The translations under genes were made by a program, and so were the position numbers. Positions 53,436 through 62,568 of a stretch of 64,000 nucleotides of DNA are shown piece by piece. Positions within the stretch are counted from its first letter, which is position 1, and every line of letters begins with the position of its first letter. The stretch lies in assembly GCF_017939745.1 (NCBI RefSeq), contig NZ_JAGKQQ010000002.1:558001-622000 (forward strand). Reading direction: 5' to 3'. The DNA is from Gemmata palustris (GTDB lineage Bacteria; Planctomycetota; Planctomycetia; Gemmatales; Gemmataceae). The notes under the pieces are model-generated. The model worked only from the letters and a program-made list of their open reading frames with translations, ran no database searches and had not been told where the DNA came from.

Positions 53436-53738
53436 TCACAACTTCCGAATCGGGTTGTGTGCGGTTTCGCCCACAACCGTCGTCCACACGCGCACGCGCC
53501 AGCGCGTGACTAAGCCGTTCGTCACGTAGGGGTCGCTGGTCGCGAACGCCTCCACGGGCGCGGGCGAATCGCATTTGAAGAGCAGCACGGCCCCGTCGGG
53601 CGGGTCGGCGAGCGCGCCGCCCAGCACCAGTTCCCCGCGCTCCACCGCGGCCCACGCATGTGCCAAGTGCAGGGCACGCAGCGGAATGCGCCGCTCCGCG
53701 TAGTCCGGTACCACGTCGTAAAAGAGTAAATAGTGCAT
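53436..53738 (-). CDS. YCII-family (YciI-like) small protein
   Basis: 100-residue protein of the YCII superfamily (dimeric alpha-beta barrel). The start MHYLLFYDVVPDYAERRIPL, then LHLAHAWAAVERGELVLGGA, DGAVLLFKCDSPAPVEAFA and DPYVTNGLVTRWRVRVWTTV follow the family pattern closely. Members are of uncertain biochemical role. I chose the ATG at 53738; the open frame extends upstream without protein-like composition. Confidence 0.88.
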   Translation of the reverse strand: MHYLLFYDVVPDYAERRIPLRALHLAHAWAAVERGELVLGGALADPPDGAVLLFKCDSPAPVEAFATSDPYVTNGLVTRWRVRVWTTVVGETAHNPIRKL

Positions 53739-53940
53739 CGCACCCCCGCACAAACGGAACCACCGCACCCACCGCACCGCGCACCGTCCGAACGCAAAAA
53801 GCGGCGCGGTTCGGCCTCCATCGTCGCGTACCGCGGGCCGATATTCCACACTGTTCCCGAACGCGGCCCGCGGTCGCAGTTGGGACCGAGCCGGTCACGA
53901 CGACCGGTACTACTCTCGCCCTCCACGGAAGGACCGTCCC

Positions 53941-54042
53941 ATGCAAAAGTTCCTCATCGCCATCATTCTGGCCGCCGTCACCTTCACCGCCGCGTCGGGG
54001 TGCCGATCCGCCTCGTCGAGCGGCTGTAGCTGCGGCCGCTAA
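53941..54042 (+). CDS. 33-residue lipoprotein (entericidin-like size)
   Basis: A short frame with an excellent ribosome binding site (GGAAGGA, about 7 bases before the ATG). It encodes 33 residues: a lipoprotein signal (MQKFLIAIILAAVTFTAASG) with a lipobox-type Cys at residue 21 and then a tiny mature peptide CRSASSSGCSCGR. The size and layout resemble entericidin-like mini-lipoproteins, but homology cannot be judged by eye. A hairpin terminator follows 22 bases after the stop. Function unknown. Confidence 0.78.
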   Translation: MQKFLIAIILAAVTFTAASGCRSASSSGCSCGR

Positions 54043-54063
54043 GCGTTGACCAATAACGATTTC

Positions 54064-54096
54064 GGGCCGCGCGAATCACGTTCGCGCGGCCCGATT
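54064..54096 (+). terminator. Hairpin terminator after the small lipoprotein gene
   Basis: Perfect 12-bp stem GGGCCGCGCGAA / TTCGCGCGGCCC (54064-54075 and 54081-54092) with a 5-base loop. The following tract (GATTTCGC) is only weakly T-rich. Confidence 0.7.
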
Positions 54097-54345
54097 TCGC
54101 GCCCCACCTCACTCACAATTGTCACTTCATTATTCTGTTATTACCGTGTCAATTCTGTTCTGCAACGACTCGCGACCTTATTGACCGGGGCGGAAAGCTG
54201 GCACCGCCAACGGAATTCCCGTGCCGGTCCCGCGCACGGCTTCCGTGCCGCCGGTCCGACCGGTTGACAGCCCCTCCATCGTACCCCACCGTTGAGCATC
54301 CCCCGTGTTCTTGCACCGCCAAACGGGTGCGAAGGATGGCCCTCG

Positions 54346-56460
54346 GTGTCAGTCACTTTGCCCGCTCGGAATTCTGCCACGAGCAGCTCACAATCGCGCC
54401 GGCGCGACGCGGTCCTCGCGACCGTGCTCGACCCGCGCCGGCTCCCGACGCCGCCGGCCGTCGCGCTCCAGGTGGTCAGCGCCGCGAGCCGCCCGGACTG
54501 CAACCCCAACGAGATCGTCAAGCTCCTTTCGCAAGACCCGGCCCTTTGCGCGAAGCTCCTGAAGGCGGTCAACTCCTGCCTCTACGGGCTCAGTAAGCCG
54601 ATCGCTTCGCTGGAGCGGGCCATTACCGTGCTGGGCCTCGGCCCGGTCCGGTCCCTGGCACTCGGGCTCTCCCTGCCCGCGATCAAAACCGGTCCCGCGG
54701 ACCCGGAGACCCGCGCGTACCAGATCACCTCCGTGGCGGGCGCGATCATCGCCCGCGACCTCTCCGCGCGCACGCCCCGCAACTCGCCCGCCGACGACAT
54801 GGTCGCGGGCCTGCTCCGGGACATCGGCGCGGTGCTGCTCCAACAGACCTACCCGGACGCTTGGCGCGACATGACGGAGCGCTGGGGCGACAACCTCCTC
54901 GCCCAGGCGTGCGAGGCCGAGGAAGAAACGTTCGGCATCAACCACGCGGACGTCAGCGCCGAACTGCTCTCGATCTGGAAGCTCCCCGCGGAACTCATCG
55001 AGCCGATCCGCTTCCACCACAACCCGGAGCGCCTCGCCGGCGCAGCGAAGGCAATCAGCAAGCGCGCCGAGCTGCTCTACTTCTCCGGCCTGCTCGCGAG
55101 CCTCGACACGGTCGTGCGGCACCCGACGGTCCTCGAGTACGTCCTCGAAATCGCCCGCACCCAGTACGGGCTCCCGAAGCCCGAACTGATCCGGTTCATG
55201 CGGAGCATCGTCCCCAAGATCGTGGACTTCGGCGAGTTGCTGGACCGCGACGTGCGGGACTGCCCGAACTTCGCGGAGGCGCTCACCGCGGGCGGGCAGG
55301 AGCTGGTGAACCTCGCGGTGGAGACCAACCGCACCCGGCTCAGCGGTACCGTCCCCCAATCCGGGTTGCGCCAGGTGCCCGCGCCCGGCGCCCACGTTCC
55401 CCCGTCCCAGATGCGCAAAGCGCCCGCGCCGTCGGGACAAGTGCCCCCGTCCCAGGCGCGCAAAGCGCCCGCGCCCTCGGGCGCAGCGCCCCAACCCGCG
55501 CCACAATCGCAAACACAGTACGACGGATGGACGTCCGCGGAGGCCACGCTCGACGCGGGCACCGGGCACACGTCCCCCAATTCCAAAATCGCGTCCGCGC
55601 TCCCCGAGTTCCGGCCCGCGTTCCTCGAGCAGTTCCCGGTATCGGGGTGCCGACTGGGGGACTACGAGCTGCGCGAGATCCTCGGGCGCGGCGCGATGGG
55701 CATCGTGTTCAAGGGGTACGAACCGAGCCTGGCCCGGTTCGTCGCGATCAAGATGCTGGCCCCGGAAACGTCCTCGGACCCGCGGGTCCGGGAGCGCTTC
55801 GCGCGCGAGGCGCGCGCGGGGGCGGCGATCCGCCACGAGAACGTGGTCACGATCTACGCGGTGCGCGAGACCGCGGGGCTCTCGTACCTCGCGATGGAGT
55901 ACGTGCAGGGCGTCGCGCTCGATCGGTACATCGAGAAGAAGAACCCGCTGCCCGTAACCGCCATCGTCCAGCTCGCGCGCCAGATCGCCCTCGGCCTCGC
56001 AGCGGCCCACAAGCGGGGGATCATTCACCGCGACATCAAGCCCGCGAACATCATTCTGGAGTACGAGTCCGAGGCCGCCAAAATCGCGGACTTCGGCCTC
56101 GCGCGGAACGGGGCCGACGGCAACGGGAACTTGTCACAAACCGGGGGGCTGATCGGCACGCCCTACTTCATGGCCCCGGAACAGATCCAGGGGCAACCCG
56201 CGACCTTCTCCTCGGACCTGTTCAGCTTGGGCGGCGTGCTGTACTCGCTGTGTACGGGTTCCCCCCCCTTTCCCGAGAAAACGCTGGCCGCGGTCCTCTA
56301 CGCGGTCTGCTCGGCGGAGCCGAAACCGATCTACAAGCTCCGCCCGGACATTCCGCAGTGGCTCGAAGACGTCGTCACGAAGCTCCTGGACAAGAACCCG
56401 GCCCAGCGGTTCAAGCACGCCTCCGAGGTGGCCGACGCCCTGCTGAAGAGTTCCCACTGA
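54346..56460 (+). CDS. HDOD-domain / serine-threonine protein kinase fusion
   Basis: 704-residue fusion. I chose the GTG at 54346 (GAAGGA about 10 bases upstream); a TTG at 54292 is also in frame. The N-terminal HDOD domain (about 25-310) has LPTPPAVALQVVSAASRPDC, PNEIVKLLSQDPALCAKLLK and AVNSCLYGLSKPIASLERA. An Ala/Pro linker (about 330-390) carries repeats of the type PPSQxRKAPAPSG. The C-terminal Hanks-type kinase (about 438-704) is complete: glycine loop GRGAMG, Lys469 in VAIKML, HRDIKPAN with Asp at 562 and DFG at 582-584. There is no membrane segment. HDOD proteins control signalling and cell-cycle processes in other bacteria. The inputs and targets are unknown. Confidence 0.93.
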   Translation: MSVTLPARNSATSSSQSRRRDAVLATVLDPRRLPTPPAVALQVVSAASRPDCNPNEIVKLLSQDPALCAKLLKAVNSCLYGLSKPIASLERAITVLGLGPVRSLALGLSLPAIKTGPADPETRAYQITSVAGAIIARDLSARTPRNSPADDMVAGLLRDIGAVLLQQTYPDAWRDMTERWGDNLLAQACEAEEETFGINHADVSAELLSIWKLPAELIEPIRFHHNPERLAGAAKAISKRAELLYFSGLLASLDTVVRHPTVLEYVLEIARTQYGLPKPELIRFMRSIVPKIVDFGELLDRDVRDCPNFAEALTAGGQELVNLAVETNRTRLSGTVPQSGLRQVPAPGAHVPPSQMRKAPAPSGQVPPSQARKAPAPSGAAPQPAPQSQTQYDGWTSAEATLDAGTGHTSPNSKIASALPEFRPAFLEQFPVSGCRLGDYELREILGRGAMGIVFKGYEPSLARFVAIKMLAPETSSDPRVRERFAREARAGAAIRHENVVTIYAVRETAGLSYLAMEYVQGVALDRYIEKKNPLPVTAIVQLARQIALGLAAAHKRGIIHRDIKPANIILEYESEAAKIADFGLARNGADGNGNLSQTGGLIGTPYFMAPEQIQGQPATFSSDLFSLGGVLYSLCTGSPPFPEKTLAAVLYAVCSAEPKPIYKLRPDIPQWLEDVVTKLLDKNPAQRFKHASEVADALLKSSH

Positions 56461-56522
56461 GCAAAATCGCCGAAATAATCGGGGCGGTAACCTCTCGCAC
56501 GAAAAGCTCTTAGGATTCCCCT

Positions 56523-56549
56523 CGCGGAAAAAGACGTTTCCGCGCCAGA
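56523..56549 (+). terminator. Possible terminator of the HDOD-kinase gene
   Basis: Hairpin CGCGGAAA / TTTCCGCG with a 6-base loop, 62 bases after the stop, followed by CCAGATTTTCG. The T-tract is short and offset, so the call is tentative. Confidence 0.45.
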
Positions 56550-56664
56550 TTTTCGTTGCGTGGGAGAAAGACCACGGTAGGATGCTAAGTGGCAAACCGG
56601 TCGGTTGTCGGCTCCGCCGGTGCCCACTTCCTTCAATTCCAACCGACGGTGAGGAGTACCTCCG

Positions 56665-56718
56665 ATGACAGGTGCTACCAACCTCCCCTCTAATTCCGAG
56701 TCGCCGCCGGGCATTTGA
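56665..56718 (+). CDS. Possible 17-residue leader or truncated gene start
   Basis: ATG with a good GAGGAG about 10 bases upstream, encoding MTGATNLPSNSESPPGI and then TGA. A strong start followed quickly by a stop looks like either a short leader peptide or the remnant of a gene cut by recombination. No homologue is recognised. Confidence 0.3.
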   Translation: MTGATNLPSNSESPPGI

Positions 56719-56944
56719 GGGCTGCACGCCTACGGTCCCCTGGGGTGCTACCGAGCAAGTCGGGCGCTATTCCGGCTCTCGCCTCTTGCTTCTTTTCATT
56801 ACCCACTCGACCAGACGCGACAGCCTGTGCGTTTTTTGATTCAATCTGAACACACAACTTTCGCCGGAACACTGCTCGGATACCGAGCTGGGGTCAATTG
56901 ACCTTCCCACCGAGATGCCGACGTGAGATCGCCCCTCACTGCAC

Positions 56945-57196
56945 TCAACCGGGGACATAAAGAGACGAGGCGCTAAGTGCTTTAGCGCCTCGACTCATTT
57001 CGGGTGAGCCCGGCCGCCGAACGCCGATCGAATCCAAAAAGGCGCTCCATTCACTCGAGTCGGCAACTTCACTTCCCAGAATGAAACCGCGACCACCATC
57101 AACGAGCCGATAAGCCGGCGGCCCCAACAACTCGCGCATCGAGCGGGACGCAGAGCAAAAGCGCAGATTTCGGGCCGCCACCTTGATTGCTCCCAC
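56945..57196 (-). CDS. Possible small gene or gene remnant, minus strand
   Basis: 83-codon frame with fairly protein-like composition in its middle (LVDGGRGFILGSEVADSSEW), divergent from the RT-like gene. The last 15 codons run through the hairpin at 56966-56992. No ribosome binding site or family is recognised. It may be the C-terminal remnant of a lost gene. Confidence 0.3.
   Translation of the reverse strand: MGAIKVAARNLRFCSASRSMRELLGPPAYRLVDGGRGFILGSEVADSSEWSAFLDSIGVRRPGSPEMSRGAKALSASSLYVPG
56966..56992. repeat. 11-bp perfect hairpin upstream of the RT-like gene
   Basis: CGAGGCGCTAA at 56966-56976 pairs with TTAGCGCCTCG at 56982-56992, loop GTGCT. It is stable enough to be a terminator or RNA structure on either strand. 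Confidence 0.7.
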
Positions 57197-57256
57197 GCGG
57201 GCGCTTCGGGTATGACGGTGCTACTCGCTTCAGCCCACTCACCACCCGATAGCACA

Positions 57257-59818
57257 ATGCCCACGAACCACACCCGACTCCTCGCGCAAATCAAGCTCCG
57301 CGAAACCGAACGGCAGCGCGACCGGTTGCGGAAGCAGTACGACGATATTGAATCACAGGTCACCCGCGCGGGCACCCCACTGGAGCGCCTCCGCGCGCTG
57401 CACGCCGGCCTGCGCGAGGTCACGTTCGCCCAGAAACCGCTGCACCCGGCGGTGCGAGAGATTGATGCGCTTTACTTGGCCGACGGGTTGGGTGTGGTGC
57501 CACCCGAACTCGTCACAGAGCGCACGCGGTTCCTCGAACACGAACTCGCGCAGGGCCGACTGCGCGCGGAGTTCACATATGCGTTCGGCCGCGTACTCAG
57601 CGAGTGGGTCGGTGCGGAACCCCCGCCCGCCCGCGCCGGAACGGATGCAAACCCGGTCGCGCTCATGTTCGCGGAACCGCCGGTCCCGGACCGCGAGTGG
57701 CTCGACCGGTTCGCCTCAAACAACAAGGGCGTGCTCGATTCGGTCGCAGTGAGAGTAAAAGATTTCGCCGAGCGCGGCGCGCTCCGCCCGGTCGGGCCGC
57801 ACGAAATCCAGGAAGTGCTGAACCAGATCGAGCGCCACCCCCACCTCGCGCCCGCCCTCCGCAGGCAAGCGGCCGAAGCCCGCGCGAGCACGACACAGAT
57901 CACCGAACTGAGTGGCGTCGCGACGATCCTACTGAACAGCCTCGACGAATGGGACTGGCCCGGGGTCGGTGTACCGATGCGAACGGTATGGGTCCGTGTA
58001 AAGCACCGGCCGTACCTCGACGAAGACCTCGTGACCGCAGTGTTCCTGCAAGTCGTCGGGCTGCGGTGGGGGAAGAGCCTGCACGAGGTTCTGAAGTGGA
58101 GCTCGTTGCGCGACGGCCACGACCCGCTGTTCCGGCCCGAACCGCCCGATTCGCCCACCGCGCACATCGCCGGGGATCGCCTCCGCGCGCAAGCGGACCG
58201 GTTCCTCGCCGCGCTCCCCACCGACGAAAGCGGCGGAATCGAATCCGGGTACACGGGGATTGGGCTGACGGACCTCATCACGAGCATCGAGCGCGAGGTC
58301 CGGTTTGCACGCGCCGCGTACCCGGACCGCCCCTGCTTCGTTGTGCAAGCCGACCTGCGCAATTACTACCCGGCACTGTCACACGCAATTATTCTCGACG
58401 TACTGAAGCTCATCGGCGTGCCCGAGAAGTGGGTCACGTTCTTCGCCACGTTCCTCGCAACCCGCGTGCAGTGGCAGAACACCGTTGCCCCTCTGCGGCG
58501 CGGGCTCGCGCTCGAACACGCACTCGCGGACGTGTTCGGCGACGTGGTGGCGTGGGCGCTCGATCTGCACATTTTTCGCACCACCGGCGTGCAAACCATC
58601 CGGCTCGTGGACGACATTTGGTTCGTCACCGATTCGCACGAGAAGGCCCGTGCGTCGTGGGCCGCGTTACAGGAATTTTGCCGCGCCACTGCGCTCGAAG
58701 TGAACGAGGAGAAGTCCGGCGCGGTGTGCGTGGGGGATGGCACCGCCACACTCGACGGCCTCCCCACGGGTAAGCCGCGATGGGGGCTCCTCCGGCTCCA
58801 GGCGAACGGCGCGTGGGAGATCGACGAAGCGGCCTTTGCAAAAATCGAAGCGATCACGCGCGACGAACTGACCGCGTGCCCGTCGGTGCTGGCGCTCGTC
58901 GCCCAATACAACGGGTACCTCGGCTACATCATTCGGCAACTCGCTTTGCCCATCACATTGCGCGGCGACCACTTGCGCCGGGTGGCGCTGCGGCTCCAGA
59001 AAACGCACGACGAACTCTTCGGTGCCGGCCACGGTTTGGTGGAAGAAGTCGGGCGCCGACTGCGCGACTGTTTCGCCGACGCACGGCTGAAAGAACAGGG
59101 GCTCCCGCACGCGCTCCTGTACTGGCCCATTACCGCGGGCGGACTGGCTCTCGCGCACCCGGTGTTGCGAGTCGCGGCCCACTTGCGCGGTCAAACGGGC
59201 TGGTCCGAGCCAAAGCTACCGAACCGGGAAATTGTAGCCGCGTACTTGCGCCTGCGCGAAGCCGACGTTCGCAAGATCCCGTTCGGTGGGACCGAAGAAG
59301 CGCACCTGATGGGCTTGGACCCGGACCGGCCGAACGGGTCTCTCACCCGCGCCCAATTCGAGGATTATCAGAAGGCCGTCAAACGAAAGGACAAATCACT
59401 TCCGGCCCCGGAAGAGGTGGGCGTCGCGATGGCGGCGCTGTGGGCGAACTATTACCGCTCGGCGGTCGATGTGCGAAAGCCGTCCGGTCCGCCGCAACTC
59501 GATGCGATGGAGCGCCTCGTTCAAGACTTCATCGCCCGCGGCGGTGAAGTGACTGGGCGCGGGCAGTCCGGGCTGACCCCGTACTGGCGGTGGGTCGTGT
59601 ACACTTACGGGCCGTCGCTCCTCGGCGCGCTCGGCACGTTCCGCTTCCTGTTGACGGAACTCGTTCCGCTCCAACTCATTCTGGAGAACCGCGGACTCAC
59701 GACCGGCCCGGACGACGAAACCGGACACGCGCCACAACCACCGAACCACGACCACGACGGGTGGTCAGCGAACTACCCCGCGCCGCCCGCGAGTGGTGAC
59801 GAGCCGATCCCGTTCTAG
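57257..59818 (+). CDS. Diverged reverse-transcriptase-like protein (rvt-like)
   Basis: 853-residue protein with the conserved motifs of an RNA-dependent DNA polymerase palm, in order: motif A VQADLRNYYPAL (Asp366), motif B-like RRGLALEHALADVFGDVV, motif C IRLVDDIWFV (Asp452/Asp453), motif D LEVNEEKSGAV and a motif E-like WGLLRL. The catalytic Asp triad is thus intact, but motif C is LVDD, not YADD. The N-terminus has a charged coiled coil (KLRETERQRDRLRKQYDDIE) and about 300 residues before motif A; the C-terminal 350 residues are unassigned. Group II intron maturase (X), endonuclease and retron signatures were not seen. From memory the pattern resembles the single-copy cellular rvt genes known mainly from fungi, with a few bacterial members. 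Start: ATG 57257; ATG 57212 is in frame. Neither has a good ribosome binding site. Confidence 0.8.
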   Translation: MPTNHTRLLAQIKLRETERQRDRLRKQYDDIESQVTRAGTPLERLRALHAGLREVTFAQKPLHPAVREIDALYLADGLGVVPPELVTERTRFLEHELAQGRLRAEFTYAFGRVLSEWVGAEPPPARAGTDANPVALMFAEPPVPDREWLDRFASNNKGVLDSVAVRVKDFAERGALRPVGPHEIQEVLNQIERHPHLAPALRRQAAEARASTTQITELSGVATILLNSLDEWDWPGVGVPMRTVWVRVKHRPYLDEDLVTAVFLQVVGLRWGKSLHEVLKWSSLRDGHDPLFRPEPPDSPTAHIAGDRLRAQADRFLAALPTDESGGIESGYTGIGLTDLITSIEREVRFARAAYPDRPCFVVQADLRNYYPALSHAIILDVLKLIGVPEKWVTFFATFLATRVQWQNTVAPLRRGLALEHALADVFGDVVAWALDLHIFRTTGVQTIRLVDDIWFVTDSHEKARASWAALQEFCRATALEVNEEKSGAVCVGDGTATLDGLPTGKPRWGLLRLQANGAWEIDEAAFAKIEAITRDELTACPSVLALVAQYNGYLGYIIRQLALPITLRGDHLRRVALRLQKTHDELFGAGHGLVEEVGRRLRDCFADARLKEQGLPHALLYWPITAGGLALAHPVLRVAAHLRGQTGWSEPKLPNREIVAAYLRLREADVRKIPFGGTEEAHLMGLDPDRPNGSLTRAQFEDYQKAVKRKDKSLPAPEEVGVAMAALWANYYRSAVDVRKPSGPPQLDAMERLVQDFIARGGEVTGRGQSGLTPYWRWVVYTYGPSLLGALGTFRFLLTELVPLQLILENRGLTTGPDDETGHAPQPPNHDHDGWSANYPAPPASGDEPIPF

Positions 59819-59952
59819 TGCGCCGCACAGCGCATATTCCGTTTGAGTTTTCCAACGTGCTTCGCTACATTTTGAATCAGAGAACCCGCCCCGCTGGTGT
59901 GACCCTCCAACTGCTCGCTCCCTCCTCCCGCACGCACTTTGCGGAGACTTTG

Positions 59953-62361: not shown

Positions 62362-62396
62362 CATGCCCCGCACTCTGTTGGCCTAGCGGTTTTGGT

Positions 62397-62457
62397 TTCG
62401 TGGCACGGGCCTCTGGCCTGTGCGTCACAAACACAGGCCAGAGGCCCGTGCCACGAA
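62397..62457. repeat. Perfect 26-bp palindrome, GGCACGGGCCTCTGGCC family
   Basis: Arms 62397-62422 and 62432-62457 are perfect inverted repeats with a 9-base loop (CGTCACAAA). It lies between the DUF1592-type and DUF1552 genes. Confidence 0.88.
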
Positions 62458-62568
62458 CAAGATTTTCACAAATAGCACCCGCCCGAGTGATCCTGCCGTT
62501 TGCATGCTACCTGCCCGTGTGCCCCCGTCCACAAGGGCGAGGGGCCAACAATCCGGAGCACGCTGCCA

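Follow-up and report, generated by a model that had tools for sequence, protein, structure and literature searches.

What is a large reverse transcriptase (RT), free of the parts that mobile introns carry, doing among ordinary genes of the planctomycete Gemmata palustris, and with which partners would it work? An earlier note on this DNA had singled out an RT gene in the window (the whole stretch of 64,000 nucleotides analysed here) as encoding a functional or recently functional polymerase, had related its motif C to telomerase RTs and to the cellular rvt proteins, and had pointed to fungal homologues.

The enzyme, its class and its relatives

The frame at 57257-59818 (+) is a genuine open reading frame for an RT of 853 amino acids, as judged from its sequence and from comparison with an orthologue of 74% protein identity in a second genome of the genus, G016 (the window's own genome is G000). 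The ATG at 57257 is likely to be the start codon. The alignment of the two proteins runs from a common MPTNHTRLLA to a common final PIPF, and DNA similarity to G016 extends from 57239 to 59716 (74.8% over 2,498 columns), so that it begins 18 nt 5' of this ATG and stops close to where the variable tail begins. An upstream in-frame ATG, at 57212, falls outside the similar stretch. The features of the locus are as follows.

57257..59818 (+), RT_UG37 / rvt-like reverse transcriptase, 853 aa plus stop (UG37 profile match, G016 orthologue)
57257..57646 (+), N-terminal region, residues 1-130 (dN/dS ~0.10; helices in a low-confidence model only)
58073..58291 (+), region before motif A, residues 273-345, counterpart of the beta' clamp-helix-like site in three homologues; the element is not detectable here
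58328..58735 (+), RT palm, residues 358-493 (motif A D366; motif C RLVDD, D452, D453)
59474..59692 (+), conserved C-terminal domain, residues ~740-812 (YWRWVVYTYGP...LVPLQLI)
59693..59797 (+), Pro/Asp-rich, poorly conserved tail, residues 813-847 (G016 alignment, dN/dS)
59798..59815 (+), SSB-like C-terminal tip DEPIPF, residues 848-853, directly 5' of the stop TAG
56990..59831 (no strand), segment without counterpart beside either flank in G008 and G010 (comparison with the two closest genomes)

The Pfam model RVT_1 recognised the window protein at 33.8 bits against a cut-off of 29.6. A profile of five family members matched RTs of known structure in the PDB with E values down to 3.8e-13; this best value belonged to Cas6-RT-Cas1, followed by retron-type and group II RTs. 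Comparison of profiles with seven other RTs gave a probability of 99.1% over residues 358-493. Beyond RT-core and chance matches, neither a maturase nor an endonuclease nor an RNase H domain was found in the window protein with Pfam and NCBIfam, the NCBIfam maturase model reaching a weak 32 bits against a cut-off of 300. Two AlphaFold2 models built from two-row alignments, one of the whole protein and one of the palm, were of low confidence (pLDDT 36 and 48), and a fold search with such a low-confidence model returned no match below E 0.4.

The gene is under purifying selection. Between the window and G016 we obtained dN 0.184, dS 0.983 and dN/dS 0.19 over 845 codons by a single method (NG86). 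Of seven regions compared by the same method, residues 700-815 had the lowest dN/dS (about 0.09), against about 0.10 for residues 1-130 and about 0.25 for the palm (361-520). Because the N-terminal part and the C-terminal domain are more constrained than the palm, the parts outside the RT core matter. The residues D366, D452 and D453 and the motif C IRLVDDIWFVT stand in the frame just as the earlier note had read them, and the three aspartates are aligned in all six UG37 members. The gene thus encodes a full-length, constrained RT, and the statement of the note that maturase and endonuclease parts are absent holds up.

The class assignment is clear. The PADLOC profile RT_UG37, one of the UG/Abi RT classes, matched the whole protein (E 6.9e-166, 551.5 bits), against 39.1 bits for the next RT class, and four homologues searched against the whole PADLOC library matched RT_UG37 at 434-552 bits. 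A fifth homologue, in G914, was found with the UG37 model in two pieces (226 and 133 bits). The window protein differs from the class in leaving the profile without a match between positions 276 and 364, where it has 56 other residues, 281-336. A long family-specific region precedes motif A in the UG37 RTs. In G000 itself the gene is single copy, three profile pieces falling on one open reading frame.

UG37 homologues are rare. Two of 19 genus genomes carry the gene, the window's own and G016. In a sample of the phylum one genome of 392 matched, again the window's own, and G016 was not among the matches listed; the phylum was searched once at E 1e-20, where no more than two candidates of each genome were scored, and again at E 1e-15, and misses are possible because of that limit on candidates. 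In Myxococcota, 3 of 282 genomes had a homologue, and in one class 3 of 317, two of these being the same as before. The four myxococcal homologues (G442, accession JAEUKG010000016.1, Myxococcales; G577; G610; G914) share 31-36% of their aligned residues with the window protein, and the evidence on the family thus comes from six members in all. The first scan of the genome collection, with the single window protein as query, gave no homologue. No paper on UG37 RTs was found among titles and abstract openings, mostly of papers outside subscription.

In a palm tree the six UG37 sequences grouped in a single clade (support 100/96). The 19 other RTs in the tree, which come from planctomycete genomes and include group II-like and retron-type RTs, all fell outside it. 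The comparison set comprised 20 other RTs, each the longer open frame at its match as cut by a script; one of them, L011, has no recognisable motif C and was left out of the tree. Five other RTs of the window genome (L001-L005, contig G000:C1) share one fork of the tree, and the two of them run in PADLOC, L001 and L003, matched retron-type RT models best. The outcome of two checks proposed in the earlier note, a search against RT families and a palm tree, is as follows: an identity as group II intron or retron RT was rejected, the tree placing the window RT elsewhere and no RNA element exceeding its gathering score. The special link to telomerase read from motif C was not supported, since none of the 33 distinct PDB sequences matched by the family profile is labelled telomerase and UG37 scores 551 bits against 39.

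The relation to rvt fared better. A fungal rvt-like sequence that does not come from a database record aligned end to end with the window protein at 29% identity. In PADLOC it matched UG37 at E 6.7e-95, with 36.3 bits for the class next in rank. In view of its provenance, we treat the match as a strong lead and not as a test. It suggests that UG37 probably represents the rvt genes on the bacterial side; the idea of the earlier note is thus probably right, although it depends on this one fungal sequence and not on a named rvt protein. The accessible parts of the rvt literature describe single-copy genes that are under purifying selection and have been transferred horizontally, whose products polymerise without a template and relieve stress (PMC10680173). 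They also report that rvt proteins act as terminal transferases and are upregulated when translation is blocked (PMC3520738), and that a large loop 2a marks what is called the only RT group present in both bacteria and eukaryotes, of obscure origin (PMC5718144). The window gene is likewise single copy, constrained, non-mobile and patchy, with its active-site residues kept. It differs in what follows, in that the accessible parts of these papers mention neither an SSB-type tip nor an RNA-polymerase-like element for rvt proteins.

SSB-like tips and beta' clamp-helix-like elements

The window protein ends in ...PAPPASGDEPIPF. An SSB-type tip, by which we mean acidic-IPF or acidic-VPF at the extreme C-terminus, is present in four of the six UG37 members: DEPIPF in G000, NDPIPF in G016 and YDDVPF in G577 stand directly before the stop codon, and the G914 RT has DDDIPF followed by TTA, which is not a standard stop. 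The RTs of G442 and G610 end earlier and have no tip. In E. coli the SSB tip DDDIPF is described, in the accessible parts of two papers (PMC10018359, PMC5872125), as a binding hub for at least 17 partners. As in SSB, the RT ends in one or more acidic residues and IPF or VPF after a variable linker, and by eye the tail at residues 813-847 looks like an SSB linker; the difference is that the tip is carried by a polymerase, in which no SSB domain was found.

The tip also resembles the SSB of the same host. The SSBs of G000 and G016, in both of which the SSB domain was confirmed, end in GGGGNDPIPF and GGGGDPIPF, so that in each genome the RT and the SSB have in common an unusual proline fourth from the end. 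The genes beside these two SSBs appear, as read by eye, to be those of ribosomal proteins bS6 and bL9. A second SSB of G000 (L061) has the tip DDEIPF, unlike the NDPIPF of the first, and is phage-like by its neighbours as read. In G914 the SSB ends in DDDIPF, as the RT does. The SSBs of G442 and G610 end in DDEIPF and EDDIPF although the RTs there have no tip, and the tip therefore cannot be essential to the basic reaction. For G577 the search gave no SSB match. From these endings we predict that the tail of the window RT is probably a functional SSB-type docking tip. That a UG37 RT bears such a tip is a new observation, which the earlier note missed: in a literature search mostly of papers outside subscription, none was found that joins the SSB C-terminal tip or DIPF with reverse transcriptase, and the matches to 'SSB-Ct' with reverse transcriptase were limited, in the accessible parts of the sources, to a primase paper and a replication review.

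A second host-like part occurs in some relatives. Against the PDB, the family profile also matched ten RNA polymerase beta'/gamma sequences at one place of the alignment (E 0.002-0.009), and the best matches of single sequences to the same beta' stretch had E values of 0.021 (G610), 0.018 (G442) and 0.98 (G577). With the RpoC of their own hosts, the RTs of G610, G442 and G577 share 19, 17 and 16 of 32 residues (50-59%); R275, R278, R281, N294 and E295 are kept in all three, and A302 is changed in all three.

L041 residues 277-308, L045 residues 291-322 and L046 residues 292-323, beta' clamp-helix-like element of three UG37 RTs (RpoC comparison)

Ungapped scores against RpoC were 98, 85 and 74 for these three RTs, against a maximum of 45 and a mean of 24.5 for 900 other ORFs drawn at random from those of at least 200 aa and scored against the G610 RpoC only. 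The other three members scored 24 (G000), 26 (G016, against the G000 RpoC) and 25 (G914, against the G442 RpoC). Since its score of 24 lies at background, the clamp-helix element was rejected for the window protein. Pfam reported no RNA polymerase match in the RTs that bear the element. The accessible part of one paper describes R270, R278 and R281 as essential for NusG binding (PMC12364105). The first of these, R270, falls outside the matched stretch of 32 aa. Sigma also docks on the clamp-helix surface of beta'.

Each of the six RTs carries the tip or the clamp-helix element, and that of G577 carries both. These sequences raise the idea that UG37/rvt RTs bear copies of two docking parts of host hubs, the SSB tip (four of six) and the beta' clamp-helix tip (three of six), and may be targeted by mimicry to replication-repair and transcription complexes, a suggestion that we hold with slightly less than even confidence.

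The G914 ending deserves a remark of its own. Both the RT (L060:7949-10258, minus strand) and the SSB (L062) reach the expected DDDIPF and then continue through TTA into an open frame; in the case of the RT, an R2K_3 ATP-grasp protein (L060:6914-7780, minus strand) lies in the same frame after it. In 363,612 bases of G914 (L060, L062 and L067-L106), the coding signature was lost after 14 of 19 TTA codons that follow a coding-like stretch, compared with 75 of 113 for TGA, 11 of 20 for TAG, 5 of 12 for TAA and 4,275 of 65,232 for all sense codons; the effect for TTA has a Fisher p of 2e-13, computed on six-frame windows in which shadow frames are counted, and under a more stringent threshold fewer than six TTA cases remained. 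The G610 and G442 stretches, of the same class, contained no TTA in such a context, and the 13 kb of G577 contained one, also at a drop. No tRNA gene was found in 18 loci. TTA may be read as a stop in G914.

Proposed role and genomic setting

On balance we lean slightly towards a non-mobile UG37 RT, probably of the same family as rvt, that would dock through its SSB-type tip on partners of SSB at exposed single-stranded DNA and synthesise DNA there. In such an enzyme the N-terminal part and the highly conserved C-terminal domain would frame the RT palm, and DEPIPF would bind the SSB-recognition pockets of RecO, PriA, primase, exonuclease I and similar partners. If the tip binds as predicted, the RT would be brought to the machinery on exposed single-stranded DNA, or would compete for it, for example where forks have stalled or where phage DNA has entered the cell. 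Nucleotides would be added there, probably without a dedicated template because of the published activity of rvt, and the addition might be primed by a protein residue; rvt proteins have reportedly shown protein-primed polymerisation. The enzyme could serve a response to stress, to phage or to both, and its patchy distribution fits stress survival and phage defence alike.

The last point leads to the reading as a stand-alone anti-phage RT (DRT), in which infection would set off DNA synthesis, with a block to the phage or death of the host as the result, the tip sensing or hijacking replication proteins of phage or host. We regard it as possible but rather doubtful. UG37 is already named in PADLOC as a candidate anti-phage class and is filed among the DRTs, and all experimentally characterised UG enzymes are said, in the accessible part of one paper, to be implicated in phage defence (PMC12632851). 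The distribution also fits: the RT is an accessory gene of the genus, and it lies beside rearranged flanks in a segment that we regard as lineage-specific, because in G008 and G010 the two flanks are apart and neither genome has the RT. The left flank matches G008 to 56989 and G010 to 56934, and the right flank matches both from 59832, 14 nt 3' of the stop codon. The left flank with its HDOD-kinase gene (53438-56989) lies elsewhere in G008 and G010, and a stretch of 5.5 kb common to these two genomes (91%) also ends close to the site of that segment; the site may be prone to rearrangement.

Against a defence role, nine of the ten neighbouring window proteins had no PADLOC match and the tenth, the HDOD-kinase, matched kinase-bearing models by its protein-kinase domain only. 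In addition, no relative of the RT was found in plasmids, phage records or viral contigs, the viral scans being based on short patterns. A Pfam survey of ten proteins, three from the window and seven from four homologue loci (L038, L041, L045, L046), left three of the seven without a match; in L060 of G914 the ATP-grasp protein was identified separately. No family except protein kinases recurs between the window and the homologues, so that the shared gene neighbours the earlier note had proposed to look for did not appear, and the G016 orthologue has different neighbours. Its view of the flanks as housekeeping-type genes without mobile-element ends agrees with what we see, namely ordinary planctomycete genes and no repeat pair spanning the edges of the segment; the lone edge repeat is a terminator-like hairpin at 56959-56999, at the left edge.

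It is unlikely that the DEPIPF ending arose by chance in an RT unrelated to SSB partners. The ending is six residues long and two of the six members do without it, as chance would allow. Against this, the tip recurs in the G577 and G914 RTs, whose identity to the window protein is about 32-34%, and in the window genome it is common to the host SSB down to the proline. Among 1,655 ORFs (six-frame, at least 100 codons, from 17 loci fetched around RT, RpoC, SSB and flanking genes), the ending [ILV]PF occurs five times, in three UG37 RTs and in two SSBs; the counts of RTs and SSBs follow from the choice of loci, and the result is that no other ORF ends in this way. None of the 20 other RTs has such an ending.

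Still less probable is an enzyme like DRT2, DRT9, DRT10 or telomerase, for which an adjacent non-coding RNA would serve as template for repeat DNA. These share with the window protein the RT palm and the wider RT group (UG17, the class of DRT10, is among the weaker class matches at 30.7 bits), and about 750 nt of intergenic space upstream could house an RNA. The two orthologues, however, show no significant DNA similarity upstream of 57239 although their proteins are 74% identical, and Rfam gave no match near the RT gene; a neighbouring non-coding RNA was therefore not supported. The window RT also differs from DRT10 and telomerase in having no conserved upstream sequence, in the absence of telomerase from the profile matches and, as regards DRT10, in ten neighbours that match no PADLOC family besides the kinase-bearing models. 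Rfam reported six matches up to E 0.5, all below the gathering score; they come from miRNA models, whose precursors are resembled in shape by a hairpin at 62390-62464 that separates the genes for DUF1592 and DUF1552 proteins (E from 0.00014).

A decayed or passing mobile element, to which the lineage-specific segment 56990-59831 and the other neighbours in G016 might point, is scarcely credible and already largely refuted by the dN/dS, as well as disfavoured by the lack of an endonuclease domain and of an edge-spanning repeat pair and by a palm that does not fall among the group II-like or retron-type RTs in the tree.

We return to a UG37 RT that would act through partners of SSB. Its class, its intact catalytic residues, the purifying selection and a tip that matches the host SSB variant are seen in the sequences, whereas the binding of partners, the cellular location, the kind of synthesis and the role in physiology are what we infer. 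The tip hints at the cellular site of action of this poorly understood RT. Together with the clamp-helix element of the relatives, it gives an enzyme without a clear role a set of predicted partners, namely RecO, PriA, DnaG and ExoI on the one side and sigma and NusG on the other. If the mimicry is true, it would provide a mechanistic handle on what the UG37/rvt enzymes sense, and the probable identity of the two families would join the candidate defence class UG37 to the literature on rvt.
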